A stretch of DNA of 35,868 bases. It comes from an uncultured Francisellaceae bacterium (GTDB lineage Bacteria; Pseudomonadota; Gammaproteobacteria; UBA6186; Azoamicaceae). Location of the stretch: the NCBI GenBank assembly GCA_903827925.1, contig CAIKKE010000050.1:1-35868 (forward strand). The letters are read 5' to 3'. This document shows positions 252 to 33,777 of the stretch, in pieces; the stretch's first letter is position 1; every line of letters starts with the position of its first letter. The notes below the pieces were generated by a model, which made no database searches, had not been told where the DNA came from, and saw only the letters and a program-made list of their open reading frames with translations. A program made the translations under genes and the position numbers.

Positions 252-1214
252 CTATTTGTCAAGCTCTTCACTCTTAAGCTTATTAATTTCTTCTATTGTC
301 AGTTTTGTTACTTTTATGATAAAGTTAATATCAGAACCTTCTGCTAACATAATGCGAGCGGTTTCTTTTTTGTTCTCGACTCTACCTCTATCTATACCTT
401 GAGATATGCCTTGAGATATGCCTTCTTCTTGAAATTTACGCGCTAATGTACCCATAATTTTCTCCCTTACTACTGGAATAGTATTTAATTGTTTAACAAA
501 TTCTTCTTGATTACTAACATTGCCTACTAACATTATATAGTATAAACAATTTTCAATGTAAGTTAATAGTAGAATTTCATCGTTACCAATTTTTTCTAAA
601 GCATCAATAATGAATTGCTTTAAGTCATTTATTACTAATAATAAATCCCTATCTCTAGCATGTTTTTGCAGATATTCCATTAATGCAACTAAATTATGTT
701 TTTTTAATTCATCGTCTGAAAAAAGTGTAATATCAACTAAATGCGCAGGCTGAGCTAAGGTCTGTTTAGCTAATTCTTGATCATTGAATAGGTCGAAAAT
801 ATTTAAAGAATACGGATAAGGTTTTCGATTTGCTTGTTCTTGGTAAAATAATATTGGGAATACAATCGGTAAAGTAGTGGCTTTTGGATGTTCCTGCAAA
901 TGTTGCATAATAATAGCTAACTGATAGCGTAGAATTCTAAGTGGCATCATTTTTTTTGGTGAACTTTGATGTTCTGCCAATATATAAAGATAGTTGCCTG
1001 TATTGTTGTCTAATTTGCTGTAATACAATACATCTGAAAATTGCTCTTTTAATTCTTCATCAAGTAATGAGGTATTACAAAATTTTAGATCATCAAGGTT
1101 GATTTTATTTAACACAAATGCTGGTAAGTGAGCTCTAAAAAAATCTTTAGCAACATCAATATTTTTTAGCGTAGAACGAAATAATGCATCATGTGGATTA
1201 GGAATTTTACTCAT
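252..1214 (-). CDS. Rpn family recombination-promoting nuclease / PD-(D/E)XK putative transposase
   Basis: A 320-residue protein of the Rpn (RpnA/transposase_31-like) family, whose members have a PD-(D/E)XK nuclease fold and promote RecA-independent recombination. The N-terminus has the family opening PNPHDALFRSTL. Likely active-site residues are Asp61 in FSDVLYYSK and Glu81/Gln83 in LAEHQSS, followed by the conserved RILRYQ helix. The C-terminus carries the usual Gly-Gln repeats (GISQGISQG), encoded by a 12-bp tandem duplication near 395-425. The frame can be extended seven codons to a TTG at 1235, but the ATG at 1214 fits the family start better; neither has a strong ribosome site. It appears intact and transcribes towards the left end. 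The nuclease activity is a family property, not shown here. Confidence 0.9.
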   Translation of the reverse strand: MSKIPNPHDALFRSTLKNIDVAKDFFRAHLPAFVLNKINLDDLKFCNTSLLDEELKEQFSDVLYYSKLDNNTGNYLYILAEHQSSPKKMMPLRILRYQLAIIMQHLQEHPKATTLPIVFPILFYQEQANRKPYPYSLNIFDLFNDQELAKQTLAQPAHLVDITLFSDDELKKHNLVALMEYLQKHARDRDLLLVINDLKQFIIDALEKIGNDEILLLTYIENCLYYIMLVGNVSNQEEFVKQLNTIPVVREKIMGTLARKFQEEGISQGISQGIDRGRVENKKETARIMLAEGSDINFIIKVTKLTIEEINKLKSEELDK

Positions 1215-1236
1215 TATATCAGTTCGCCCATCCAAT

Positions 1237-2136: not shown

Positions 2137-2790
2137 TCAAATCAAATAAGCTGCTTGTTCTTTGAATAATTTTAAAAGCATATTATCAGTTTTTAAATGT
2201 ACTTCATCAATAATTTTTTTAGGATCCTCAACTGTTTGATTAACTAATTTTTCTAATAATATACAAGCAGTAATTTGATGCTTGATCGCAATTTTATGTA
2301 GATCAGATAACTCTTGAACATCTGTCATTAAGTTATTCTGTATAAAAAAACTTTCAACCAATCTTCTAATTAATGGTATGACTTTTAATTGTAGTCTTGT
2401 AGATTCACTGCTTAACCATGTAAACAACATTGTTTCTATGCTAACACACAGTCGTTGTTTCTTAGTATTAAAATTCATTTGTTGTAATAAATTTTCGGTT
2501 TCTTCAAATGCTAAATTACGTAAAATTTCCCCTTTCTCTTCGGTAGCCAAAATCAATTGTTCTAATAATTTAGCTGTGAAAATAATATATCCCATTTCAT
2601 TACGATGAATTTGATTATATCCACTGCTTAGCTTAATTGTATAGTTATAGTTAAGCTCTACCGGACCTTGTTGCATTTTTTGATATAATAAATCTCTAAC
2701 AAATTTAGAAATAGTAATTTTATTTTTTTGGGCACTACCAATGATCCAATTGGCTAAATAATCATCAAATATAATACTAACAATTTTCAT
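2137..2790 (-). CDS. Putative relaxosome accessory protein with two ribbon-helix-helix segments (TraY/TrwA-like role)
   Basis: A 217-residue protein. Two segments each look like a ribbon-helix-helix DNA-binding unit, a short beta strand then two helices. One covers residues ~1-40 (KIVSIIFDD then an ITISKFVRDLL helix). The other covers ~110-150 (QRLCVSIET then VIPLIRRLVESFF). Linked RHH units in one chain are known from F TraY. Two helical stretches follow each unit and may mediate assembly. The ATG overlaps the traI stop as ATGA, with AAGGAG eight bases upstream, so it is the last gene of the transfer operon. The phased hexamer array begins about 165 bases downstream. I infer that it binds that array and recruits TraI. 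There is no close sequence match to a named family. Confidence 0.6.
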   Translation of the reverse strand: MKIVSIIFDDYLANWIIGSAQKNKITISKFVRDLLYQKMQQGPVELNYNYTIKLSSGYNQIHRNEMGYIIFTAKLLEQLILATEEKGEILRNLAFEETENLLQQMNFNTKKQRLCVSIETMLFTWLSSESTRLQLKVIPLIRRLVESFFIQNNLMTDVQELSDLHKIAIKHQITACILLEKLVNQTVEDPKKIIDEVHLKTDNMLLKLFKEQAAYLI

Positions 2791-5700
2791 AGACTTAACT
2801 CCTTATTTAACTGTAGGTTTTTAGTAACTGCTGGCGTATTAGTTGTCTCTATAGCTTTAACAACTTCTGGTGATTTTTGGAGTTCTGCAGATTGCAATGA
2901 TTTATTAATAGAATTAACTCCTAAATGTTTCAACACATCATTAAAATCCACTTTATTCATTCCTGGAATTTTTTCTGGATAAGCAATAGATACTTCTAAA
3001 CCACGTTCTTTATAAAAATTAGCTGCCGTTAACAATGTTTTATTAGAAATCGCATTAGCTCCATCATAATCAGCACATAAAACTACTTTTTGAACATCAT
3101 TTGGTAATGGTACATTTTTAAGATTAGATACTGATAATGCTGCAATTATAGTGTTGTTTGGTTTAGCTTGAGCAATACTTAAAGCAGTTTCTATTCCTTC
3201 AGCTATATAAACGGTATTTCTAACTTTACCTTGGTTAACAGTAACTGCTGCATTAATCATACTACCTAGGTTAGCTTTAACAGTCGCTTTTCTAGATTCC
3301 CCTTGATCATCAACATAATTAGAATTTAGTTTATTACCATCTTTGTTTAAAAAAATACGCACGATCCCTTGAATTTGATCTTGTTCATTTTTAATTGGAG
3401 CTAGTAGTGCTGGGATAAACCGATTTAAATCTGGATGCTTTAATTTAGCACAAAATCTAAAATCACTAGGGATGCATCCATTAATCCCTCTAAATTCTCG
3501 CAAATATTTTTCAGCTAAGGTGCCGAAAATAGAGGTGCCACTATTATAAATTTTATTAACATATGCAATTTTTTTGAGATCTAACGTAGTAATATTTTTT
3601 GATTTTTGGTTGGTATTGGCGTTAATTGGTTTAGTAAACAATTTATTTATAGATCCAAGATGCAACGAACTAGATAATTCATTGATAGCAGCCTTAAAAT
3701 CATGATTAAAATGTTCTGTATAAAGCGATAATAGATTTTTTCCACCCAAACCTTTTTCAAAATTATGCCAATATCCAGCTTTATCACCAGATAATTTAAC
3801 TACTAAAGAACCTTTTTTACCCCATCTAGCCTCTAGATTACTCGTTTTTTGTGGTTGCCCTAACCAATTGGTTGCATGTTGTAAAATATTGCTATGCAAC
3901 CTATTAATTACTTGCTCAATAGTGACTGTTTGAGATTTTTCGTATAAAGAATTTTTTACAGTAACAACTTTAGGAGGTGATGTAAAAGCAGGTTCTTTTT
4001 CGGCAATACCAGTAATATTGCTGGTCATCTGATCTACTTTGGCTCGAACTTTGTTTTTTTCAGGATCTAAAAATTCTAAAGAACTACGAACATCAAGTAC
4101 TCGTTGTTCCAATGCGTGTTGGTAGCTCTCAATATGATCTACTAATAAAGTAACTTGATCGCCTCTAGTTACACTTACTAAAAACTCATTAACTGATGTA
4201 AGTTTAGGAATGTTTGATGCCTTTCTGGTTGCAGGGTTCGGGTAACTGTGCCATATAGCTTGATCTTTACAATATGCATTGGTGGGTGATTTTTTTAAAT
4301 TAATTCTCAAATCATTCCCAATTCGATCTTGAACGACAGCAGTACTATCTTTATTGATTTCTGTTACTTTAACCAATTTGGAACTAGAAAGATTTTGGTT
4401 TAAATTAACTGCAGACTCTTTAGTTATAAGTACATCACCCACCTTGATTTCTTTGCTAAGAATTTCTCTACTATAACCTCCTTTTGCTAAAGCAATGGTC
4501 ATTTGCTTATCTGCTCCTTGTGCTATAAAAGTGGTGGTTGCATAAGCGTGATCCCAATGTTGATTAGTAAATTCTTTTAAATTTAAGAGAATTTCTTTAC
4601 CATTTTGCAATAAAATAGTTGCATCATGGTTTTGATCAATTGACTTGATAGTCGCGGTTTGACCATTACATATACCAACAACTTCATTATTTTTTAACCA
4701 TCTGATTTGATCGTTAGTCATTAACTTGCGCGCTTCTTGTCGATAAACATTAATATTACATGGGCTTTTTTCAGGTGACCAAACAATTTGTTCCTGGGTT
4801 ACAGGATGTTCTAAAGTTAAAGTTTGGTTGTCTAAATCTTTATGTTTGATTAGATAATATTCATGGTTTTTGACCTTTAACTCTATAGAGGGTTTAAAAA
4901 AAGTAATTAAATCTTGTTCTTTAAAGTAATAAATTTTTTGTTGTTCAGCTTTGGTTAATTTTACTTGAGTTAAATTATGGCAATTAACTTCCAGACCAAT
5001 TAATTGATTAGCTTGTTTTAATCCTTGCCGAATTTCATGATTTACTAATTTGCGATCAGCATGTTCTGGGGTAATTAATATAGTATTTAGCCTTTCTTCT
5101 GGAGTTTTTGCTAAATATAATTCTGCCATCTTCATTAATCGCTCTTGATGCTCTGGAATTTCCACCAAAGAATCACCTAATCTTTTTAAAGCCTCAGGAA
5201 TTTGATTTTTATAAATATGTTGCATCACATTTAAGGTTTTAGCTGATTTGAAGCGAACATTTTCAGTTATAAAAACGGATTGCATCTCGGAGCCCAACAT
5301 TAAATAAAAGATCATACCTGCTTCAATTGAGTATAATTGTCGATGATCACCCATTACAACTAACCGAGCATCTAATTGTTCGACTTTAGTAAGGATCGCA
5401 AACATTTCAGCAGTTGAAACAAATGATGCTTCATCTAATATTAATAGTTTATTAGTGCCATACTCTAACTTAGCGAGAGTTGGATCTAGATTTAATAATT
5501 TTTCACTTTCAATTAAAAATTTGCGTAAAGTCATAGGTTTAATGCCAGCTCGTAATAATAAATCTTGACTACTTAAGTTTTGACTACCCTCTTGCAGCCG
5601 TTCTTTAGCACCGGTTGTTGGGGTTAACCCTATAATTTCAAAACCAGAGTCTTTACATAATTTATTTAAACTGCGAATCATTGTGGTTTTTCCAGATCCA

Positions 5701-7877
5701 GCTATTCCTTGGATCCCAACTATTCGATCACCAGTAGTTAATGCTAATTTAATTGCATCTTGTTGTCCTTTAGTTAAATTATTAGGTAAATCTATTTGGG
5801 TACTAATTGGATCAATAGTTTTTTGGTTAGATGTTATTAATTTTAGACAAGACTGTTCTAATGAAAGATTAGCTTTGGTGGTAACCAATCCTTCTTTCAC
5901 CGTAATTAATGATTGTTGTAATGCTAGATCTAATTCAGTTTGCAAGACTTCTTTAGGAACGGTGATCCCTAAACTAAATAGTTCTAGTTGTAGTTTTTTT
6001 AACGAAAATACTGCATTATATTGTTGATGTTTACTAATAACCCAATGTACTAGAGAATTAGCAGTATTAGTTTGCCAATTAGTTTTATCGATATGATTAT
6101 TAATTAAATCTATTTGATTATTTAATTTTGGATGGCACATTAAAGCTGAAACATAATCAATAGATTTTTTATTGTCTAAATGACATTCTTTGATCCCATG
6201 TTTCAGTAATGCACTAATGGCAGCTTGAGGTTTATTAATTTTGTTAGACCAAAGGATCCTAGTGCCAAATTGTTTAGCATAAGATTGTAATCTATTAAGC
6301 TGATTGCTGGAAATACTACTATGCAGATCTAAGATCCAAATTTGTTTAGCTTGAAATAATCTATATGCTGGAATTGGTTGATTTTTGATTTTTTCTGCTC
6401 GATTTTCGCAACTTATTAAAAAACCTTCTATAGTCTGAACTCGTTGTAATCCTAACTCTTTGGAAAATTCTGCTTTTCTTTTCAATGTTTGAGTAATTCC
6501 TAGCGGATAAAATCCATATTTATAAGATAGATCTACGAATGTTTTCATGGTGAAGGTATAATTAGTTGGATTTTTAGCACTTACGACCAGTTGGCAGTCA
6601 GCATTAGTTAATAAAGTTTTTAAGACTGGTTGCATCTCTTTGAACTCAGTGGTTTTTTTAGTCAAATAATTAGCAGCCATTCCAGAAAACATTGGACATA
6701 GTTTATTTTTACCTTGACGCATATTAAGAATATTTAACATTTCTAAATCACGTGCAGTTTGAGTCGTACACAAATCATTAGTTAAATATAATAATTCACC
6801 AGATTTAAACTGCTCCGCTATTACTTTATTGATTAATTCTGGAGAATAATTGCGAATACTTAAGCCTCCTGCAGTTTTAATTAACTCCTTGGTAGTAAAC
6901 ACTCCTCGCCAATTACTTAATTCTTTACTAGCTTTAGTTACAGCTTGGTAAGCTAAGTGATATGGATTAGGTGGGGTTACTGCACCTCGTTCTAATGCTT
7001 GTTTACTATAGTTTTTAAGCCATTCTATACTTGAACCACAACGCATTAATTCCATTGTCCAAGCTAATTCTAAATGCTCTGGATCAACAGCTATTTTTCG
7101 TTCACGAGTATTAAAATTAGCAATTTGTGCAGCCTTGCTACCCTCTAGATTTTGTTTTTCTAATTCTTTAGTGATTTGCTCTCGACGTTTAGAAAATTGT
7201 TTAATTAACTTTTCTGAAAATCCTTTTAATTCAAATAACCCTTGTTCTGAGGTTTGGGTAATTTCAAACCCAGCTTTCATCAATTCTTGAGCTAATTTAC
7301 CACGATAAATTACCCCTAATAACATTTTATTATCATAAACTTCATCGAAATATAAAGTTCGCCATTTTTGATCAGATCTAAGAGTTGCATTCATAATAAT
7401 ACAGTGATCATGTAAATTAGGATCTAGTTCCCGAGAATCTGTATGCTCAAATTTAGCAATTAATAAGTTGTTGGTTTTTTCAATTGTGGTTTTACCATTG
7501 TTTTTAACTCTAGTTGCTGCAAAGTTCTCTTCTAAATATTTTAATGCTGCGTTTACGGCGATCTTATGTGCTTTCAATACTCGCTCATCTTTACCCACAA
7601 TTGCTAAAATTGACACTGATTTAGGGGCAGAAAATGTTAAGTCATACCCTGGTCGATGATTTTTAGTAGTTGCTTCCATGGTAACTGTTGGTGATAATTT
7701 GCCTTCTAGTTTAGCAATAAAATCTGGTAATGTAGCATTACCTTCTAAATCTAATAATTCTGCACCCTTACCGAACCATACTCCTAAAGCAGGTTCTCCT
7801 TCTTTAGCATAATAATTATCTTCTTGATAATAGCTGCCAGCTTTGGCGGCTGATTTTAAAGTGTAAATGCTTAACAT
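2787..7877 (-). CDS. traI: TraI-like conjugative relaxase/helicase with C-terminal primase-Toprim region
   Basis: A 1696-residue MobF relaxase, close in length to F TraI (about 1756). The N-terminus has two tyrosine pairs, Tyr16/17 and Tyr22/23, nearly as in F TraI, and a metal-binding His triad at His145, His156 and His158 (LHDHC). A RecD-like helicase follows, with Walker A GIAGSGKTT near residue 725 and DEXX-box LILDEAS near 812. The C-terminus (~1330-1650) is unlike F TraI. It has a WHNFEKGLGGKNLLSL segment typical of plasmid primase-like proteins, then a Toprim-type region with VYIAEGIETALS (~1555) and VVLCADYDGANA (~1600). It should nick oriT, unwind the strand and perhaps prime the complement in the recipient. 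It shares one base with the traD stop. Confidence 0.93.
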   Translation of the reverse strand: MLSIYTLKSAAKAGSYYQEDNYYAKEGEPALGVWFGKGAELLDLEGNATLPDFIAKLEGKLSPTVTMEATTKNHRPGYDLTFSAPKSVSILAIVGKDERVLKAHKIAVNAALKYLEENFAATRVKNNGKTTIEKTNNLLIAKFEHTDSRELDPNLHDHCIIMNATLRSDQKWRTLYFDEVYDNKMLLGVIYRGKLAQELMKAGFEITQTSEQGLFELKGFSEKLIKQFSKRREQITKELEKQNLEGSKAAQIANFNTRERKIAVDPEHLELAWTMELMRCGSSIEWLKNYSKQALERGAVTPPNPYHLAYQAVTKASKELSNWRGVFTTKELIKTAGGLSIRNYSPELINKVIAEQFKSGELLYLTNDLCTTQTARDLEMLNILNMRQGKNKLCPMFSGMAANYLTKKTTEFKEMQPVLKTLLTNADCQLVVSAKNPTNYTFTMKTFVDLSYKYGFYPLGITQTLKRKAEFSKELGLQRVQTIEGFLISCENRAEKIKNQPIPAYRLFQAKQIWILDLHSSISSNQLNRLQSYAKQFGTRILWSNKINKPQAAISALLKHGIKECHLDNKKSIDYVSALMCHPKLNNQIDLINNHIDKTNWQTNTANSLVHWVISKHQQYNAVFSLKKLQLELFSLGITVPKEVLQTELDLALQQSLITVKEGLVTTKANLSLEQSCLKLITSNQKTIDPISTQIDLPNNLTKGQQDAIKLALTTGDRIVGIQGIAGSGKTTMIRSLNKLCKDSGFEIIGLTPTTGAKERLQEGSQNLSSQDLLLRAGIKPMTLRKFLIESEKLLNLDPTLAKLEYGTNKLLILDEASFVSTAEMFAILTKVEQLDARLVVMGDHRQLYSIEAGMIFYLMLGSEMQSVFITENVRFKSAKTLNVMQHIYKNQIPEALKRLGDSLVEIPEHQERLMKMAELYLAKTPEERLNTILITPEHADRKLVNHEIRQGLKQANQLIGLEVNCHNLTQVKLTKAEQQKIYYFKEQDLITFFKPSIELKVKNHEYYLIKHKDLDNQTLTLEHPVTQEQIVWSPEKSPCNINVYRQEARKLMTNDQIRWLKNNEVVGICNGQTATIKSIDQNHDATILLQNGKEILLNLKEFTNQHWDHAYATTTFIAQGADKQMTIALAKGGYSREILSKEIKVGDVLITKESAVNLNQNLSSSKLVKVTEINKDSTAVVQDRIGNDLRINLKKSPTNAYCKDQAIWHSYPNPATRKASNIPKLTSVNEFLVSVTRGDQVTLLVDHIESYQHALEQRVLDVRSSLEFLDPEKNKVRAKVDQMTSNITGIAEKEPAFTSPPKVVTVKNSLYEKSQTVTIEQVINRLHSNILQHATNWLGQPQKTSNLEARWGKKGSLVVKLSGDKAGYWHNFEKGLGGKNLLSLYTEHFNHDFKAAINELSSSLHLGSINKLFTKPINANTNQKSKNITTLDLKKIAYVNKIYNSGTSIFGTLAEKYLREFRGINGCIPSDFRFCAKLKHPDLNRFIPALLAPIKNEQDQIQGIVRIFLNKDGNKLNSNYVDDQGESRKATVKANLGSMINAAVTVNQGKVRNTVYIAEGIETALSIAQAKPNNTIIAALSVSNLKNVPLPNDVQKVVLCADYDGANAISNKTLLTAANFYKERGLEVSIAYPEKIPGMNKVDFNDVLKHLGVNSINKSLQSAELQKSPEVVKAIETTNTPAVTKNLQLNKELSL

Positions 7878-25975: not shown

Positions 25976-26293
25976 TTAAATAGTCATACCTGCTAGCTTT
26001 AATGCACCAGTAGATAATGTGGCACCAAATGCTATATATGCGACATAACCTAAGTTGTTTAAAATAAATTGAGAGATCTTTTGTCCGAAAGCAGCAACTG
26101 CCCCTAAAATCGTAGCTGCTAACACTCCAACTGCACCAACATTTTTAATTACATTATCAGTTAAAAACGTAGTTACTGGTTCGGTTAATTTAGTTCCTTC
26201 CATAGCATTAGCATCAACAGCTACTGATAATAAAGCTAATAACGCTACGAATGATAAAACTTGATTAGTTTGAAATTTAAATTTACGGATCAT
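25976..26293 (-). CDS. traA: TraA, conjugative pilin precursor
   Basis: A 105-residue prepilin of the TraA/VirB2 type. The leader (residues ~1-30) ends VDANA, a plausible signal peptidase site, leaving a ~74-residue mature pilin. That pilin has two hydrophobic helices (NVGAVGVLAATILGAVAAF and LGYVAYIAFGATLSTGALKLAG), separated by a short polar turn, as expected for pilins that sit in the inner membrane before assembly. AAAGGAG lies seven bases before the ATG. It is the first recognised transfer gene and precedes traL as in F. Confidence 0.92.
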   Translation of the reverse strand: MIRKFKFQTNQVLSFVALLALLSVAVDANAMEGTKLTEPVTTFLTDNVIKNVGAVGVLAATILGAVAAFGQKISQFILNNLGYVAYIAFGATLSTGALKLAGMTI

Positions 26294-26375
26294 TTTTGCA
26301 CTCCTTTTTTTATTTAAACTTTACAACCAACTTCTTAAACGAATATATTGCAATCAAAATAATGTTTTCAGTGTG

Positions 26376-26504
26376 TTAACGGCACGGTATAAAACTTAAG
26401 ATTTTTGCAGAAAAAGTTGTCGTTGCGTCAGTATTTTCAATAATATGAAATTTTAAAAAATCTGTTGTAGGTGGCGTGGATAAAAATTTAGATTTATCTA
26501 TCAT
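26376..26504 (-). CDS. Small ORF upstream of traA (42 residues), unknown
   Basis: An ORF of 42 residues, MIDKSKFLSTPPTTDF to SFIPCR. Its ATG is preceded by a strong ribosome site AAAGGAG with a ten-base spacer, comparable to that of traA 82 bases downstream. It is polar with no membrane segment. It may be a small transfer-operon protein or a translated leader that affects expression of traA. I recognise no family. The ribosome site is the main support. Confidence 0.45.
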   Translation of the reverse strand: MIDKSKFLSTPPTTDFLKFHIIENTDATTTFSAKILSFIPCR

Positions 26505-26552
26505 GATACTTTTGCTCCTTTAAAAATAAAATTTTTGAAAATTTCTGCTGTT

Positions 26553-26744
26553 TTATAAACATAATGATATTTTTTTGTAAATTACTTTTATAATGTCTTT
26601 TAGTGAATGGATGATAATTTGCTCAAGATTAGTAATACTTTTGTACTTGGAATTTTGTGTTCCTCGTATAGTTTTTATAAAAAACCCTGCCCTACTCAAT
26701 TTAAGCTGGTTACTTAGATCTATTATATTTTTATTCTCTACCAT
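26553..26744 (-). CDS. Hypothetical 63-residue basic protein
   Basis: A short Lys/Ile-rich ORF starting at the ATG at 26744. The ribosome site is weak (GGA about 12 bases upstream). It has no signal peptide. Residues ~7-25 (DLSNQLKLSRAGFFIKTIR) could form a helix pair, but no domain is recognised. It may be the first gene of the minus-strand transfer operon, a decayed regulator, or chance coding in AT-rich DNA. Confidence 0.3.
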   Translation of the reverse strand: MVENKNIIDLSNQLKLSRAGFFIKTIRGTQNSKYKSITNLEQIIIHSLKDIIKVIYKKISLCL

Positions 26745-26838
26745 AAGAATGTTATTCCATTAACTGTTAATATTCAGATCTTTGTTATCAAAATAAAAAA
26801 CATAATAAAGTTATTCTGATCAAATTCTATATATATTT

Positions 26839-26865
26839 GTTAACTTAAGGTTAACAAAGGTTAAC
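26839..26865. promoter_or_regulatory. Three phased GTTAAC boxes, putative operator
   Basis: GTTAAC, itself a palindrome, occurs at 26839-26844, 26850-26855 and 26860-26865, steps of 11 and 10 bases, the last two preceded by G. The boxes lie between the divergent XRE gene and the minus-strand transfer region. This suits cooperative binding by the XRE repressor, with possible control in both directions. Confidence 0.5.
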
Positions 26866-26901
26866 CAAAAGATCAAGTATGTTTACAAAAAATATATCAG
26901 T

Positions 26902-26930
26902 TTGATCTATTAGTTTTTTTTGTTTACATT
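26902..26930 (+). promoter_or_regulatory. Putative promoter of the XRE operon
   Basis: TTGATC (26902-26907) and TACATT (26925-26930) are separated by 17 bases, 28 bases before the ATG at 26959. The -10 matches four of six consensus bases. It lies just right of the GTTAAC boxes. Confidence 0.35.
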
Positions 26931-26958
26931 TAAAGACAATAAAAATAAGGTGGGAGAA

Positions 26959-27468
26959 ATGGATAACATTAATTGCAATATTACAGAAAGATTGAAAGAA
27001 GCTTTAATGAAACGCGGATTAGGTTCTTCAGTATCTGCAATTGGTGTTCAAACTTCTCCTTTGGCTAAGCATTTAAAGGTATCTGTTCAAACTATAAGAA
27101 AATATTTAACTGGCAAAGCAACTCCAGATCTTAACAAAATTATTAAAATAGCTGAGTTTTTAAAAGTATCTCCTGGATGGCTAGCATTTGGTCTTAATGA
27201 TGTTTTTACCGATTCGTCACTAAAAATTTTTGAAATAAAAAAAATATTTATTAGAGAAATATTTCAAGGTATTTTTACAAATATTTTAGATATTAAATTA
27301 GATGATGACTTATTAGGATCAATTTATGATTTCTTATATGGTATCATAAATGATATTGCTCAACTTGAATCAAATGATGAGATGAAACTTCGCTTAATAA
27401 GAACTTCAATTGCCTCAGCATCAATAATGGAAAAAATAACATGGAAGAAAATCTCTACAACAAAATAG
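26959..27468 (+). CDS. XRE-family helix-turn-helix transcriptional regulator
   Basis: A 169-residue DNA-binding protein. Residues ~31-75 form a Cro/CI-type HTH: SPLAKHLKVSVQTIRKYL, then the recognition/turn GKATPDLNKIIKIAEFLKVSPGWLAFG. The rest is helical, probably for dimerisation. The frame extends 13 codons upstream, but the ATG at 26959 has GGTGGGAG four bases before it and starts the usual N-terminus. It overlaps the next gene by 28 bases. Targets are not known; its own promoter and the transfer operon are the natural candidates because of the GTTAAC boxes between them. Confidence 0.85.
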   Translation: MDNINCNITERLKEALMKRGLGSSVSAIGVQTSPLAKHLKVSVQTIRKYLTGKATPDLNKIIKIAEFLKVSPGWLAFGLNDVFTDSSLKIFEIKKIFIREIFQGIFTNILDIKLDDDLLGSIYDFLYGIINDIAQLESNDEMKLRLIRTSIASASIMEKITWKKISTTK

Positions 27469-28049
27469 ATTATCCTGAAACAATTCACAAAATAAACGAT
27501 TGGTCATTTAAATTTAGATATGAGTTTTATAAGAAATTAGAATGTTTTTTATCTTCTGGAATGATAATTGATTATATAAGTGCCAAGTTAATTAAATTTA
27601 ACAAATTAGCTTTGCTATCAACTAAGCCACCAGTGGAACTAAACATTATTAACAGTCCTTTATTTATGCATGACAAATCGTTTTCTTTTGCTGTTTTTTC
27701 ATCTAATAAACCATTTTTATGGATTGATACTTTTGATAACAATAAATTTTATGAACTAAAGTGTAAAAAAATGGATAATTTTGGTTTTACTTCTGCAATA
27801 TCGCTTTACGCTGGTGATAAAGATCAAACAATTTCTATTTCTTTTGCTACGAAAAGGACAAATAAAGATATTAATAATTATTACTTGGAAAACATTAAAT
27901 ATCTATATAAAATTGCCAGTTTTGTTGAAAAAGTAGCTTTACCAATGTTTTGTGAGATGTTTTCCCTAAAACTAAATGGTAGTTACTTTAGTACAATAAG
28001 CAATTTAAACCCTCATGCAAGAATTTTTCTTGCTGTAAACAATGTTTAG
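27441..28049 (+). CDS. Stand-alone autoinducer-binding-like protein (LuxR N-domain-like, no HTH)
   Basis: A 202-residue cytoplasmic protein. Its second half resembles the ligand-binding domain of LuxR-type receptors. MDNFGFTSAISLYAGDKDQ followed by ISISFATKR parallels the FGIRSGITIPI / MSMFTMAS pattern of TraR-like sensors, and a long helix with IKYLYKIASFVEKV follows. No DNA-binding domain is present, and I do not see the canonical lactone-contact Trp/Tyr pattern. Its reading frame starts within the end of the XRE gene (28-base overlap), so the two are probably coupled and may form a split sensor-regulator. The family assignment is by eye and uncertain. Confidence 0.55.
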   Translation: MEENLYNKIDYPETIHKINDWSFKFRYEFYKKLECFLSSGMIIDYISAKLIKFNKLALLSTKPPVELNIINSPLFMHDKSFSFAVFSSNKPFLWIDTFDNNKFYELKCKKMDNFGFTSAISLYAGDKDQTISISFATKRTNKDINNYYLENIKYLYKIASFVEKVALPMFCEMFSLKLNGSYFSTISNLNPHARIFLAVNNV

Positions 28050-28068
28050 GCAATCTAAGAGCAAAAAT

Positions 28069-29361
28069 ATGAATAAACTAAAATTGGTAATTTGTGCAAC
28101 TTTTGGTAATTGTTTTGAAGTGTATGACTTTATAATTTACCAATTACTAGCTAACCATATATCAAAGCATTTTTTTGATATACATTTTAAAAATGCTTTT
28201 CTTTGGACTCAATTAATTTTCATATTAACCACTATTTTGTCCAGACCGATAGGAGGATTAATTTTTGGGTATTTAGCAGATCTAAAAGGAAGAAAATTAA
28301 GTTTAGAGAGCTCTATTTTAATGTCTGGGGTATGCACAGGAATGATTGGTTTAATTCCTTCTTATGAAAAGTTAGGTTTTTTTTCTACATTGTTTTTGAT
28401 AATCTTAAGATTTCTTCAAGGGGTATCATTAGGCGGAGAACAAGGAACATCTATTTCATTTTTACTTGAACATTCTTCTCCTAAAGCAAAAGGATTTTTA
28501 TCTAGTTTTTGTTGTTTTGGTCAACACATAGGTATATTGCTTGCTATAACTGCTACCTCCATTTATAGCCTACATATTAGTAAAATAGATCTTTCTGAAC
28601 AGTTATGGAGAGTTTTATTTATACTTTCTTTCTGTTTCGGGTGGTTCGGATATTGGATCAGAAAAAAAACCAACGAAACTATAGACTTTTTACTTTGCAA
28701 CTATTGTAGTGAAGAAAAAACATCTCTGTTTAATGAATCAAAATCGTTTATATGTAATAATAAAGCTTTATTTGTATCTATATTTTTTATCGTGTCTTTT
28801 GGAAGTTTCATTTCCTATACTGTTTTTATTATTGGTAATGGTTATTTAAAACAACAAACAAATTCTTTAGCAATATTTAAACATATACAATATATTATGT
28901 CTTTTTTGGTTATACTATCTATACCGATCTTTGGATTTTTATCAGATAAAATAGGAAGGAAAACTATAATAAGCCATTCCATTTTAACTATTTCTGCGTT
29001 ATCTATCCCATTCTTTCAATCGCTTAAATCTATCCCCAATTATACTACTTTAATAGTTGCCATGTTATTAGCTATTTCTTGTGGTGCATATTTTTCTGTA
29101 ACTCCCACCATTATTGCAGAATCACTACCAACAAAATCACGCTGTATAACTTATGCTATTTTTTATACTATTCCAGCAGCTATTATCTCTAGCATTTCTC
29201 CGTTTTTATCTAATTGGTTTATAAAGCTAGATCCTATTTATATTTCTTACGTAACAATATGCTTAGCTATTTCTTCTATTATATCTCTTAAATCGTTGGA
29301 GGAACCACTATATATTTACGGTAAACTATCCAAATATTCTTATGAGTTCTTAAAACCTTAA
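28069..29361 (+). CDS. MFS transporter, metabolite:H+ symporter (ProP-like)
   Basis: A 430-residue, 12-helix MFS transporter of the metabolite:H+ symporter type that includes ProP, ShiA and KgtP. The opening FGNCFEVYDFIIYQLLA is typical. The MFS loop motif GYLADLKGRK falls near residues 67-76 and is echoed by GFLSDKIGRKT after helix 7. RFLQGVSLGGEQG (~114-126) is also characteristic. The frame extends nine codons upstream to 28042 and would then overlap the preceding gene. I use the ATG at 28069, which gives MNKLKLV. The substrate cannot be read from sequence; osmolytes, organic acids or a signal molecule are possible. Confidence 0.88.
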   Translation: MNKLKLVICATFGNCFEVYDFIIYQLLANHISKHFFDIHFKNAFLWTQLIFILTTILSRPIGGLIFGYLADLKGRKLSLESSILMSGVCTGMIGLIPSYEKLGFFSTLFLIILRFLQGVSLGGEQGTSISFLLEHSSPKAKGFLSSFCCFGQHIGILLAITATSIYSLHISKIDLSEQLWRVLFILSFCFGWFGYWIRKKTNETIDFLLCNYCSEEKTSLFNESKSFICNNKALFVSIFFIVSFGSFISYTVFIIGNGYLKQQTNSLAIFKHIQYIMSFLVILSIPIFGFLSDKIGRKTIISHSILTISALSIPFFQSLKSIPNYTTLIVAMLLAISCGAYFSVTPTIIAESLPTKSRCITYAIFYTIPAAIISSISPFLSNWFIKLDPIYISYVTICLAISSIISLKSLEEPLYIYGKLSKYSYEFLKP

Positions 29362-29474
29362 AAAATATTTATTAATTGCATTATTACTATATTTACAAGC
29401 CAAATAAAGATAGACAACCCTTAAAATCAAGGCTATTATTAATAGCAAATACTAAAGAAATTATGGAGATTTCA

Positions 29475-30071
29475 ATGCCATCAATCGTTAAAACAGCTAT
29501 ACAAATTTTTACCGTACAAAATCATATCCAGCTATTAACTTTAAAACAAAAATCATTATTAGTTTCTTTACCTTTACTTTCAACTTCTAAAGATACTATT
29601 GCAAGAATGATAGAAATCATAAAAACCAAAGGTAAAGCAGCAGGACTTGCAGCTCCACAAATAGGTGTTAACGAGCGTATTATTATTTGTAGCTTTACAT
29701 GTGATGTAAATGATTTAGAAATTATGATTAACCCAACTTATGTTAATAATGAAACCATAAAAGAAGAAGGTTGGGAAGGTTGTTTCTCTATACCGCTTAC
29801 TTTTGCTAAAGTTTCTCGCTGGAAAAATATAGACGTATCCTATTATACACTTGATGGCAATCTTATTAAGAAACAATTACATGGATTTTCAGCTAGAGTA
29901 TATCAGCACGAATGTGATCACCTGGAAGGGATCTTAATGACCGAACCAGCATCTGAGTTAAAAATTTTTACAGCAGAAGAAGAGTTTAATGCCTTTCTTC
30001 AAATTGTTCGCCAAGAAAGAGAATCTGTTATAAAACGAGGTATCCCAGCTGCAAAACTGTGCAACTCATAA
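29475..30071 (+). CDS. def: Peptide deformylase
   Basis: A 198-residue metal-dependent hydrolase that removes the N-formyl group from new proteins. All three family motifs are present: GLAAPQIG (57-64), EGCFS (101-105, Cys103 a metal ligand) and QHECDHLEG (144-152, His145, Glu146 and His149). In motif 1 the usual GVG before LAAPQ is AAG. The open frame reaches back to 29376, but the ATG at 29475 has GGAG six bases upstream and gives a family-like N-terminus. It is the last gene of the plus-strand set, 113 bases after the transporter. On a plasmid it is probably a second copy beside the chromosomal def. Confidence 0.93.
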   Translation: MPSIVKTAIQIFTVQNHIQLLTLKQKSLLVSLPLLSTSKDTIARMIEIIKTKGKAAGLAAPQIGVNERIIICSFTCDVNDLEIMINPTYVNNETIKEEGWEGCFSIPLTFAKVSRWKNIDVSYYTLDGNLIKKQLHGFSARVYQHECDHLEGILMTEPASELKIFTAEEEFNAFLQIVRQERESVIKRGIPAAKLCNS

Positions 30072-30188: not shown

Positions 30189-31493
30189 TCAAACCAGACT
30201 TTGTTCAAACTTTTCAAATGTTAACAGATCTTTAAATGTTTCTGGTTCATAATTTCTTACAAAATTGTTAAACAAGGCTTTTATTGCAGGATGTTCTAGC
30301 CTCTTTTTTTGGAACCATGTATAAATTATTTTAGCACCACTTTTCAAGCTCACCTCAAATTGTTCAACAATCATTTGTTTTTTTTCCTCGGAAAACACCA
30401 ATAATCTTTCACTTATTGTAGAGCTTATATATTGGCTATATAGAAGTCGCATTTTTTCAGATTTTTTATTTTTTTCTATTTCTAGCTCTTCACATTTATA
30501 TTTTTCAGATGGTTTTGTTGGCTTTTGATATTTGTAGTCATTTTTTAAAGCTTCCACCAAGTAAGCTGATATTTGACGTATTTTACCACACTTAAAACTT
30601 TCAGAATTTAAAATAAGAATTACTTTTTCATTAATATAATTTAATTCATATTTAGATAATATATTTGCTATGCTTTTAGCAGACATACAAAAATTATTTT
30701 TCAAAGTATCTACTAAAATATTGTTTTTAAATTCATCATTAACATTAGAAGAATTATTATTGCTATATTCTGGTAAAATATTATTAATATTATTGTAAGT
30801 TTTAAATTTTAATAAAAAACGGATGTTTACTACTTTCTTTTTAAATCGCTTTAATTCTGGAATAACTATGATTGGAGAATGTTCATTCACTTCACCAACA
30901 GCCATATCTAATACCCTTCTTTTAAAGTCCCTAAATATTACATATTTATTGTTGTCAACCCCCATTAATTTTTTGAAAATTTCTAAAGAAAACCAAGGAG
31001 TCTGAGGAATCCCAGCATATCTAATACAATTTTCATATAACGCCAAACCATAAGAAGATTTAAATTTTGGCAATAAAGATATATTAATACGACCATAAAT
31101 TTCTGGCTGATAAAAAAGTTCCGTCATTACAGAACTATATTCATAGGTACATAAACCTCCTTCTATTTGAGCAGCAGCCAGAATTGAACTTGCTTTCCAC
31201 TTATCATCAGATTTGTTTGTTTCTCTACCAGCTACATTCCATTCTATATTTATAACCATTAGCTCTAACAAAGATTTTTTAATACCTTTATAATCATTGC
31301 TTTTATAGCCAATTATTTCACAAAGATTTTTAGTTTTTATGCAAAACTCTCGTTTTAAACCCAGATCTGGGTAAGCATTGAACAGCAAAGCATTAAATAA
31401 TTTTCTTTGTACCAATGTTAAGTTATTAGAACAATGTATTAAATTAATATGCTTCTTTAATTCCAAGTTACAATCCGTTTCCTTTAATATCAT
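30189..31493 (-). CDS. Plasmid replication initiator (Rep_3/RepB family)
   Basis: A 434-residue initiator with the tandem winged-helix layout of Rep_3 proteins. The first domain opens INLIHCSNNLTLVQRKLFNALL and includes LCEIIGYKSNDYKGIKKSL. The second (~150-240) includes SYGLALYENCIRY, then FKRRVLDMAVGEVNEHS. It should bind iterons to open the origin. The C-terminal ~190 residues are Asn/Lys rich and form a long tail. The ATG has GAGGT five bases upstream. The likely target iterons lie 2.5 kb away beyond parA. Confidence 0.88.
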   Translation of the reverse strand: MILKETDCNLELKKHINLIHCSNNLTLVQRKLFNALLFNAYPDLGLKREFCIKTKNLCEIIGYKSNDYKGIKKSLLELMVINIEWNVAGRETNKSDDKWKASSILAAAQIEGGLCTYEYSSVMTELFYQPEIYGRINISLLPKFKSSYGLALYENCIRYAGIPQTPWFSLEIFKKLMGVDNNKYVIFRDFKRRVLDMAVGEVNEHSPIIVIPELKRFKKKVVNIRFLLKFKTYNNINNILPEYSNNNSSNVNDEFKNNILVDTLKNNFCMSAKSIANILSKYELNYINEKVILILNSESFKCGKIRQISAYLVEALKNDYKYQKPTKPSEKYKCEELEIEKNKKSEKMRLLYSQYISSTISERLLVFSEEKKQMIVEQFEVSLKSGAKIIYTWFQKKRLEHPAIKALFNNFVRNYEPETFKDLLTFEKFEQSLV

Positions 31494-31562
31494 TATTAAC
31501 CTCTACTCAACATATCAAGACTTTAGTTAGTGCAAACCCAATGTAATTTAATCTTTATTTGT

Positions 31563-32555
31563 TTAAATAATCCTTTCTAAATATGTAACCAAATATTGAC
31601 ATAATTCTTCATAATTAACATGCCTAATGGTTTTATCAACAACTATACAAGGTAATCCTTTGTGGTTTATTTTAAAAGTAAATAATTTTTTCCCTAAAGA
31701 AGATTTATACTTTATTGCTTTAATGAGATAATTATCTTTGTTATTTTTTGTTGCATTGAGCAGATTTGCTTCTAATTTTGCTGGCGAAGTGATTGTAACA
31801 CCAATCTCTGGAGCGATTTTTAATAAATTTAAACGCATCTGTGGCGAATCTTTTAATATAGAAACTATTTTTAGCGCAAGATTATTTGACAATCCATGAA
31901 TATCTAAAATTAATTTAACAATTTCCGAGGGAATCTTTGCATAAGCCATTAAATCATATATCTTTGACAAAGAGATTTTCAATTTGTCAGACAGATCCTT
32001 TTCATTTTTAAATACTCCATTATCAAGAAGTTTTTTATAAAGCATTGCATTTGAATAATTACTTATATCTTTTCTTTCTCGATTTTCTACTTCTTGATAA
32101 AGCAACGCTTCTTCAATATTAATTATGTTTTTCTTAATCACCAAAAATGGAATATTTAATTGCAAACACGCTTCATATCTTCTACGACCAAAAATAACTT
32201 CATATTTAATATTATTATATGGCTTCGGGTGAGGACGAATTAATCCTGGTTGAAGTTGTCCATTATCTTTTATGGATCTTACAAGTTCTTGAATATTCCC
32301 CATATCACCATCTAAGCGGTTAGCATATTTCCATGGCTCACATTGTTTGGGATCAACGTTAAACAATTCATTCTCACTAAAAACAACTCCTGTTGCCGTT
32401 TTAAAATAAGGAGCCAAATCATTACGGTACTCATGACGAAGTCTTGTCTTTCCATACTGATCTTCATTATCAGCTTCTATTGGTTTAATTTGTCCACTCC
32501 TGACTAACATACCTAAAGGTCCCGAGGAATGAACAGTTTTTTTACTATTATCCAT
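31563..32555 (-). CDS. parB: ParB-family partition protein
   Basis: A 330-residue centromere-binding protein. The ParB N-terminal domain is visible at ~75-150, with VRSIKDNGQLQPGLIRPHP and the nucleotide-contact motif GRRRYEA. An HTH follows (~190-225, EKDLSDKLKISLSKIYDLM). The frame continues to 32639 inside parA, but the ATG at 32555 has AGGAGA six bases upstream and lies 16 bases after the parA stop, so the shorter form is preferred. No parS site could be identified by eye. Confidence 0.92.
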   Translation of the reverse strand: MDNSKKTVHSSGPLGMLVRSGQIKPIEADNEDQYGKTRLRHEYRNDLAPYFKTATGVVFSENELFNVDPKQCEPWKYANRLDGDMGNIQELVRSIKDNGQLQPGLIRPHPKPYNNIKYEVIFGRRRYEACLQLNIPFLVIKKNIINIEEALLYQEVENRERKDISNYSNAMLYKKLLDNGVFKNEKDLSDKLKISLSKIYDLMAYAKIPSEIVKLILDIHGLSNNLALKIVSILKDSPQMRLNLLKIAPEIGVTITSPAKLEANLLNATKNNKDNYLIKAIKYKSSLGKKLFTFKINHKGLPCIVVDKTIRHVNYEELCQYLVTYLERII

Positions 32556-32571
32556 TAATATTCTCCTACAA

Positions 32572-33777
32572 CTATTCTTGTTCTGATTGACGAAACCAAA
32601 TCTCTTTAAAATTTCCAATAATTTCCATGTTAACATCATTAAGGTGTTGCAAAGCTCTTCTGTGTGCTTCCCTACTACCTCTAGGTTTAGAAATATCGTA
32701 TATTGTTCCTAACTCATTGGAAGCTTTAGCAACCTCAATTGTTTCACACATATGGTTAGTAAGGATATAACGCCCAAACTGTTCTCTCATCATGTTTTCC
32801 ATTTGGAGCGCCTCATTGCTTCCCGTATGTTTGGCAAGCAATATTCTAAGATATTCTAACTTTTTTTCTGGTAACTCTTTAAATAAATTTCTTAAAGTTG
32901 CGGTATACATGATAAAGCTTGAATAATCATTCATACTAGGTGGAATAGGAATAATCATACCATCACAAGCGATAATAGAATTTAATGTTAAATAACCTAA
33001 ATTTGGCCCACAATCGATTAAAATAACATCATATTTATTTTTTATTAACTTAAGTGTGTTTTTTAATCTGAGAAAAGAAGAACCAAGTTGTTCATAATTA
33101 TTTTCTCTTTCATTTGGTAAAATAAGATCACAATCTTGTATAGCAAGATTAGCAGGTATAATATCAAAACCATTAAAGTGGGTTTTTAAAATAACTTGAG
33201 AAATGAGAGATGGATCGCGAATTAAAGCATTTGTTATCGTGTCTTCATACTTAAGTTCCAAGTCTGGTATCAAACCTGAACTAATTAAAGTAGCTGTTCC
33301 TTGTGCATCAAAATCTAGTAACAGCGCTTTCAATCCCTCCATGGCAATTTTTTTACCTAAATCTACAGCTGTTTCGGTCTTACCTACACCACCTTTTAAA
33401 TTTGAAATAGCTATAGTTAAAGGCTTTGATCCTTTTGGTCTTTCATACCTGGTATTAGCTTTATTTCTTAGAAAATTAATAGCCTCTAATGTAAATTTAT
33501 TTGTTGTTTTGCCATTTTCTTTTTTTTCTGATATAACCCCTGAAATATCTTTGTACTTTTCTAATAATTTTCTAAAAGTAGGATTGGAAATATTTACCAT
33601 TTTTGCTGCTTCAATGGCTCCCCAAGTTCTAGGCTTTTTCCTATTTTGTGGATTAGTTACTAAATTTCTAAGATTTAAAAGCATTTCATTTCCTGCTTGA
33701 TAAAACTTATCCATTAGTGCTTCTGGATTTTCTGTTCCATATGTTGCAAGATTTCTTTCTAAAATAGCTGTTTCCAC
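32572..33777 (-). CDS. parA: ParA-family partition ATPase (type Ia, N-terminal HTH)
   Basis: A 401-residue Walker-type partition ATPase. An N-terminal HTH (~52-75, WGAIEAAKMVNISNPTFRKL), as in P1/P7 ParA, suggests that it also represses its own promoter. The deviant Walker A is KGGVGKT at 128-134, followed by LLLDFDAQG (152-160), and the later ILIDCGPNLGYLT is Walker A' / B. GGAG lies four bases before the ATG. A promoter with an operator-like palindrome lies just upstream. Confidence 0.95.
   Translation of the reverse strand: METAILERNLATYGTENPEALMDKFYQAGNEMLLNLRNLVTNPQNRKKPRTWGAIEAAKMVNISNPTFRKLLEKYKDISGVISEKKENGKTTNKFTLEAINFLRNKANTRYERPKGSKPLTIAISNLKGGVGKTETAVDLGKKIAMEGLKALLLDFDAQGTATLISSGLIPDLELKYEDTITNALIRDPSLISQVILKTHFNGFDIIPANLAIQDCDLILPNERENNYEQLGSSFLRLKNTLKLIKNKYDVILIDCGPNLGYLTLNSIIACDGMIIPIPPSMNDYSSFIMYTATLRNLFKELPEKKLEYLRILLAKHTGSNEALQMENMMREQFGRYILTNHMCETIEVAKASNELGTIYDISKPRGSREAHRRALQHLNDVNMEIIGNFKEIWFRQSEQE

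Follow-up and report, generated by a model that had tools for sequence, protein, structure and literature searches.

The described system closest to the locus reported here is a gene group of the LGI-1 islands, which Wee et al. (2013; PMC3864950) give in passing as a list, with no function proposed: two regulators, a deformylase and a 'proline transport protein' beside the integrase of a conjugative island. LuxR-type proteins without a helix-turn-helix (HTH) are known elsewhere: TrlR of octopine Ti plasmids, whose gene closes an opine-transporter operon, inhibits transfer of the plasmid, and CerN acts through protein contact. PipR and OryR, LuxR solos of plant-associated bacteria (PAB), sense exogenous compounds other than acyl-homoserine lactones (AHLs), that of PipR being imported by a transporter. 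Here we analyse four plus-strand genes at 26959-30071 of a 35,868-bp stretch of DNA (the window), one whole contig (G000:C50) of a 1.46-Mb draft genome. They encode, in this order, an XRE-family regulator, a stand-alone sensor protein, an MFS transporter and a peptide deformylase, and may form a portable, self-regulated signal-uptake cassette. How Legionella and intracellular bacteria related to it control conjugation is little understood and, if the cassette is the switch, it would be a concrete and testable regulator for both LGI-1 islands and F-type plasmids.

The Legionella cassettes that we found in LGI-1-like islands fit the description of Wee et al. (2013), although neither regulator had been recognised there as a LuxR-type ligand domain, and the set in the window differs in lying on an F-type plasmid of another gammaproteobacterial order, in its MFS-deformylase gene order and in having a deformylase of other origin. 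The original prediction, made from the sequence of the window, that no described system holds this set was thus nearly right, the exception being that published list. With TrlR, whose effect on transfer is established, the locus shares an HTH-less LuxR-type ligand domain, a conjugative plasmid and an operon with an uptake transporter; unlike the window's sensor, which belongs to a separate divergent family and is paired with an XRE protein, TrlR is a frameshifted copy of TraR that blocks TraR, and no TraR-like gene was seen on the window plasmid, LuxR neighbours occurring at some relatives only. PipR and OryR are likewise LuxR-type sensors beside a transporter and a peptidase, but they are one-protein regulators accompanied by an ABC/peptide transporter and a proline iminopeptidase instead of an MHS-like symporter (MHS, metabolite/H+ symporter) and a deformylase, and have no linkage to transfer genes. 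CI/RstR-type repressors resemble the window's regulator in combining an XRE HTH with a short C-terminal domain and in being divergent from mobility genes, whereas the window's XRE protein is paired with a separate small-molecule sensor and scores 36.4 for RstR, below the curated cut-off of 80. The pairing of an XRE protein with a LuxR domain was not found in the literature searched (subscription papers and preprints lay outside its scope), and the word XRE does not occur in a 2026 review of LuxR protein-protein interactions. As far as this literature reaches, four points are new: that the sensor is recognised as LuxR-type, that the set occurs on F-type plasmids, that its XRE gene is divergent from tra and that it extends beyond Legionella.

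The four genes and the fold of the sensor

Open reading frames (ORFs) and domain models confirmed the predicted layout of four plus-strand genes facing away from the transfer (tra) operon across a shared control region, which spans 665 bp (26294-26958). The XRE gene (26959-27468, 169 aa) has an ATG start preceded by a GGTGGGAGA Shine-Dalgarno sequence. Its product belongs to the XRE (HTH_3) family (40.4 bits against a cut-off of 23; 2.9e-10), also matches phage-repressor PHROGs and carries a C-terminal domain that is kept in relatives; it is the proposed repressor half of the switch. PADLOC matches were limited to its generic HTH. The sensor gene (27441-28049, 202 aa), the proposed sensor half, overlaps the XRE gene by 28 nt, as had been noticed, and this tight coupling recurs: in 34 loci the two genes are same-strand neighbours that overlap or are separated by no more than 24 nt. 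The MFS gene (28042-29361) in turn overlaps the sensor gene by 8 nt. Its product exceeds the cut-offs of both Pfam MFS_1 and Sugar_tr, and its best NCBIfam model by far is TIGR00883 (MHS), at 238.8 bits against a curated cut-off of 443.45, so the transporter is related to the MHS group, its nearest, but outside the curated subfamily. The deformylase ORF is readable from TTG 29376 to 30071, the start probably being ATG 29463 or 29475; with an ATG start, the gene begins about 100 bp past the MFS stop. Membership in PF01327 is clear (126.4 bits, cut-off 22.8; 9.9e-37), with the catalytic motifs GLAAPQ, EGCFS and HECDH intact, and the score for TIGR00079 (89.7) is under the cut-off of 103.95. An Rfam search of the region found no RNA.

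The window's sensor had no match among Pfam, NCBIfam, PHROG and PADLOC models. In 11 members of its family, the Pfam autoinducer-binding model gave no match at E values up to 10, and no HTH model matched either, so that a C-terminal GerE/LuxR HTH is lacking; the protein stops shortly after the ligand-type domain and has no DNA-binding domain. A profile of the family aligned to LuxR-type regulators over their N-terminal half (hhalign probability 95%, E 3.8e-8), some of these regulators being encoded next to related cassettes. We modelled the sensor with AlphaFold2 from 13 sequences, with a moderate mean pLDDT of 61 and central blocks of about 68-93. All of the top 50 PDB matches of this model in Foldseek were LuxR-type receptors (LasR, SdiA, TraR and kin), at E of about 1e-4 to 1e-3 and TM-scores to the target mostly of 0.35-0.65, and the profile had no match among the sequences of solved structures. 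Profile and predicted fold together support a LuxR ligand-binding type for the N-terminal part of the sensor, which backs what had been a guess from sequence and gives a family missed by Pfam models a fold and a likely function.

For the AHL signature we used W57, Y61, D70, P71, W85 and G113 (TraR numbering). In two weak alignments of the sensor with E. coli SdiA (hhalign probability 0.3%), D78 and W94 align with the signal-contacting aspartate and the second tryptophan, and the first tryptophan, the tyrosine and the proline are replaced. Since residues typical of AHL receptors appear to be partly absent, the ligand is probably not an AHL. A search for the AHL synthase LuxI found none in 11 genomes, but control genomes gave none either. 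A C-terminal LKLxINN motif (28017-28046 in the window) is kept in most members of the sensor family, and the stretch preceding it is variable and poorly modelled.

Recurrence of the cassette beside transfer genes

The sensor profile matched 96 of 143 genomes of the Legionella order, the weakest of these matches being LuxR-type relatives, and in a phylum-wide sample of 399 genomes it matched nothing but the window's own sensor. Used alone, the window sensor had no match in named genome contigs; an alignment of Legionella sensors as query led to 19 named loci, including those of L. fairfieldensis, L. jamestowniensis, L. santicrucis, L. rubrilucens, L. brunensis, L. anisa, L. tucsonensis, L. erythra, L. 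worsleiensis, L. moravica, L. massiliensis and L. maceachernii. Five of the 19 (L172-L176, in five Legionella species) encode an identical sensor protein, a sign that an LGI-1-like island may have spread by very recent transfer. No relative turned up in viral contigs or phages. The original prediction had pointed to plasmids of Rickettsiales and Legionellales as places to look for the same gene order; the set does recur beside transfer and mobility genes in Legionella, and for Rickettsiales there was no evidence, the phylum-wide sample having no match except the window's own.

The XRE-sensor-deformylase-MFS cassettes of Legionella are found mainly in LGI-1 conjugative islands. There, the cassette sits after the integrase and a divergent AlpA gene and before lvrA, csrA and the genes of a GI-type type IV secretion system (GI-T4SS), and it is kept there in many species. 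As in these islands, the window's four genes are adjacent on one strand, with the last two in reverse order. L. adelaidensis has two copies of the four genes, both arranged XRE-sensor-deformylase-MFS; one copy belongs to an integrated conjugative element, where AlpA lies on one side of it and the csrA/GI-T4SS genes on the other. At L081/L188, the cassette is followed on the same strand by lvrA and then by an F-type tra operon. The four-gene set is not a chance assembly, and it is linked to GI-type as well as F-type transfer systems, which are unrelated, yet also occurs without either. Among 40 cassette neighbourhoods, drawn from the best matches and not at random, 25 have a deformylase and 13 have conjugation genes (L101 by a weak lvrA match alone), and at least one mobility marker lies within about 10 kb in 19.

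Deformylase-less XRE-sensor(-MFS) cassettes lie at one place in Legionella chromosomes, beside thrS-infC-rplT-pheST-ihfA (L093-L100, L104), with the MFS gene lost in some. An Lvh-type T4SS next to such cassettes was considered and rejected, the neighbours reading as thrS, infC, rplT, pheS, pheT and ihfA. At L086 (G476), further deformylase-like genes follow the cassette.

Within the window's own order, we compared 11 tra operons with some sequence upstream of their start. At all three that are linked to a sensor gene (the window, G010:C106 and G009:C72), an XRE gene points away from the start of tra, and the other eight show neither XRE nor sensor gene: three in G002, two in G005 and one each in G004, G007 and G010:C29, the absence being less sure for the last two, where only a few hundred bases precede the contig end. 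The sensor, MFS and enzyme genes of G010 and G009 are inverted and converge on the XRE gene, which has retained its position. This fixed position despite rearrangement is the strongest hint that the XRE protein serves the tra operon. At G009:C72 (L102, 7441-10728), genes for a 146-aa protein and a methyltransferase-like protein follow sensor-MFS in the deformylase's place, so that the cassette seems able to exchange its enzyme gene. G009 also has a second deformylase-MFS pair (L158, 2689-4459 of C94), with no sensor gene and with an insertion sequence (IS) element just upstream. A locus in G002:C10 (L156, 3947-6998) encodes an MHS-like MFS transporter, a protein of 166 aa containing a DYFSL motif, an XRE-like protein and a deformylase that shares 47% identity with the window's; we did not count it as a fourth arrangement, as the homology of its sensor and XRE candidates failed (probabilities 1% and 12%).

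Trees separate the histories of the parts. The window's transporter clusters with those of the Legionella cassettes (support 100/99), on a long branch, and the transporters of G010 and G009 form a separate clade. The closest grouping of the window's deformylase is with those of its own bacterial family (100/98), apart from those of the Legionella cassettes and from that of G010, and is thus not of one lineage with them. That deformylases of different origins recur beside like sensors and transporters argues for a functional link, though many cassettes have none.

Control region and the proposed switch

A candidate operator lies about 100 bp upstream of the XRE start (26836-26866). It combines a perfect 23-base dyad, TTTGTTAAC-TTAAG-GTTAACAAA, at 26836-26858 with an overlapping dyad, GGTTAAC-AAAG-GTTAACC, at 26849-26866, and contains three GTTAAC motifs spaced 10-11 bp, a triple that is unique in the window. 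About 100 bp upstream of the traA start, at 26393-26403, is a weak second candidate site with a related core, AACTTAAGATT, which has a suggestive match to AACTTAAGGTT (at least 10 of 11 positions). The LGI-1 cassettes have a different dyad, ATTAATACRATATTAAT, which precedes most of their XRE genes by 120-123 bp and falls between these genes and the AlpA operon that diverges from them. At several chromosomal cassettes, AACTTAAAGTT is present 28-127 bases upstream of the XRE gene. One operator common to all XRE genes was rejected, as the LGI-1 clade has the former and others the latter. All these patterns were spotted by inspection, and the probabilities attached to them serve only as a guide. 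Scans for sigma-70 sites and terminators did not exceed what shuffles gave.

We propose, with a probability of about 0.5, that the XRE protein and the LuxR-type domain constitute a ligand-responsive split repressor that controls its own uptake operon and probably divergent mobility genes. The proposal starts from what is observed: the gene identities, the fold of the sensor, the recurrence of the set, its adjacency to mobility genes and the dyads upstream of XRE genes. The original prediction had read the set as a possible split quorum or host-signal switch governing conjugation, and the gene identities, the LuxR-type sensor, the close XRE-sensor coupling and the recurrence beside mobility genes lend it partial support. 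The XRE protein would bind the dyads in the shared control region and repress its own operon, and on the window plasmid it would probably also repress the divergent tra operon, which we consider a target of the switch at near even odds. The stand-alone LuxR-type domain, produced from the overlapping gene, would bind a small molecule and modulate the XRE protein, perhaps by contacting its C-terminal domain, and the pair would then amount to a LuxR regulator split into two proteins. Import of the ligand, or of a metabolite related to it, is the predicted role of the MHS-like transporter, and the deformylase may modify or clear an N-formylated compound, closing a feedback loop. If true, this would represent a new architecture of LuxR-type sensors, split and with an XRE partner, and offer a route to the chemical cue. 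A fuller version of the proposal, which we put forward only tentatively, is that an XRE repressor has borrowed a LuxR-type sensor domain in a module carried by GI-type islands and F-type plasmids, whose transfer or excision would answer an imported, possibly N-formylated compound.

Several observations weigh against this proposal. The original prediction had named relatives whose genes lie separately among unrelated neighbours as grounds for refutation, and this was partly found: at 21 of the 40 sampled loci there is no mobility marker within about 10 kb, and some cassettes occupy the conserved chromosomal site beside thrS-infC-rplT-pheST. The composition of the cassette also varies, with XRE-sensor without MFS at some loci, sensor-MFS without XRE at two and the deformylase missing from many, and the window's deformylase has an origin separate from that of the Legionella cassettes. 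In G010 and G009, the XRE gene is not co-transcribed with the sensor gene. As to the candidate sites, GTTAAC triples also occur in 5% of intergenic shuffles (about 0.05, statistically weak), and the traA-side site is one of only three of its kind in 36 kb. Copies without nearby mobility genes, including those at the fixed thrS-pheST site, would be expected if the four genes were metabolic cargo, in which the XRE protein and the sensor regulate their own nutrient-uptake operon alone and proximity to transfer genes comes from the places in which mobile elements store their cargo. MHS transporters are importers of organic acids or osmolytes, and the best dyads precede the XRE gene itself, which also fits such cargo. 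We regard it as a serious rival, if one that falls short of even odds: the XRE gene stays at its tra-divergent position in three diverged elements in which the other genes were rearranged, the cassette of L081/L188 immediately precedes lvrA-tra in the same orientation, and that of LGI-1 is kept between AlpA and lvrA across many species.

If the sensor worked as an antiactivator in the manner of TrlR, the HTH-less protein would block full-length LuxR regulators through mixed dimers, and the XRE protein would be an independent autorepressor. Such a mode of action is that of TrlR and CerN, full-length LuxR genes adjoin some cassettes (L022, L082, L090 and L103), and the sensor is homologous to the N-termini of these cassette-adjacent LuxR proteins. 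Most cassettes, that of the window included, have no LuxR gene nearby, and the XRE gene is nearly always present, overlapping or abutting the sensor gene; we consider antiactivation unlikely. Less probable again is a role in protection, whereby a second deformylase and the transporter would guard the host from a deformylase inhibitor or a toxic formyl compound, with the XRE protein and the sensor as the induction switch. A motif-intact deformylase does lie next to a transporter in several arrangements, but the transporter resembles importers rather than drug exporters, and the frequent lack of a deformylase counts against protection as well.

Plasmid context and neighbouring features

The window encodes Rep3, ParB and ParA (30189-33777, minus strand), outside the cassette, and since these genes lie on a whole contig, we take it to be a plasmid or most of one; a terminal overlap of the 35,868-bp contig was looked for and none was found. 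The ORFs of ParB and ParA (31563-33777, minus strand) overlap by 68 bases as listed. The F-type tra operon, the proposed target of the switch, recognised from its ORFs and from relatives' tra operons, occupies 2787-26293 on the minus strand and looks complete, with the TraA pilin gene (25976-26293) first and that of a TraI-like relaxase (2787-7877) last; the best plasmid matches of the relaxase are TraI proteins of Legionella and Piscirickettsia. A gene at 252-1235 (minus strand) matches PF04754 (YhgA-like 'Transposase_31') with 177 bits. We infer that the host is a gammaproteobacterium; it falls in a small order of its own, represented by 11 genomes. A second contig of the same genome (G000:C31; L135, 5,404 bases) carries a different F-type tra fragment, from traC to a traF-like gene, and the genome may harbour at least two conjugative elements.

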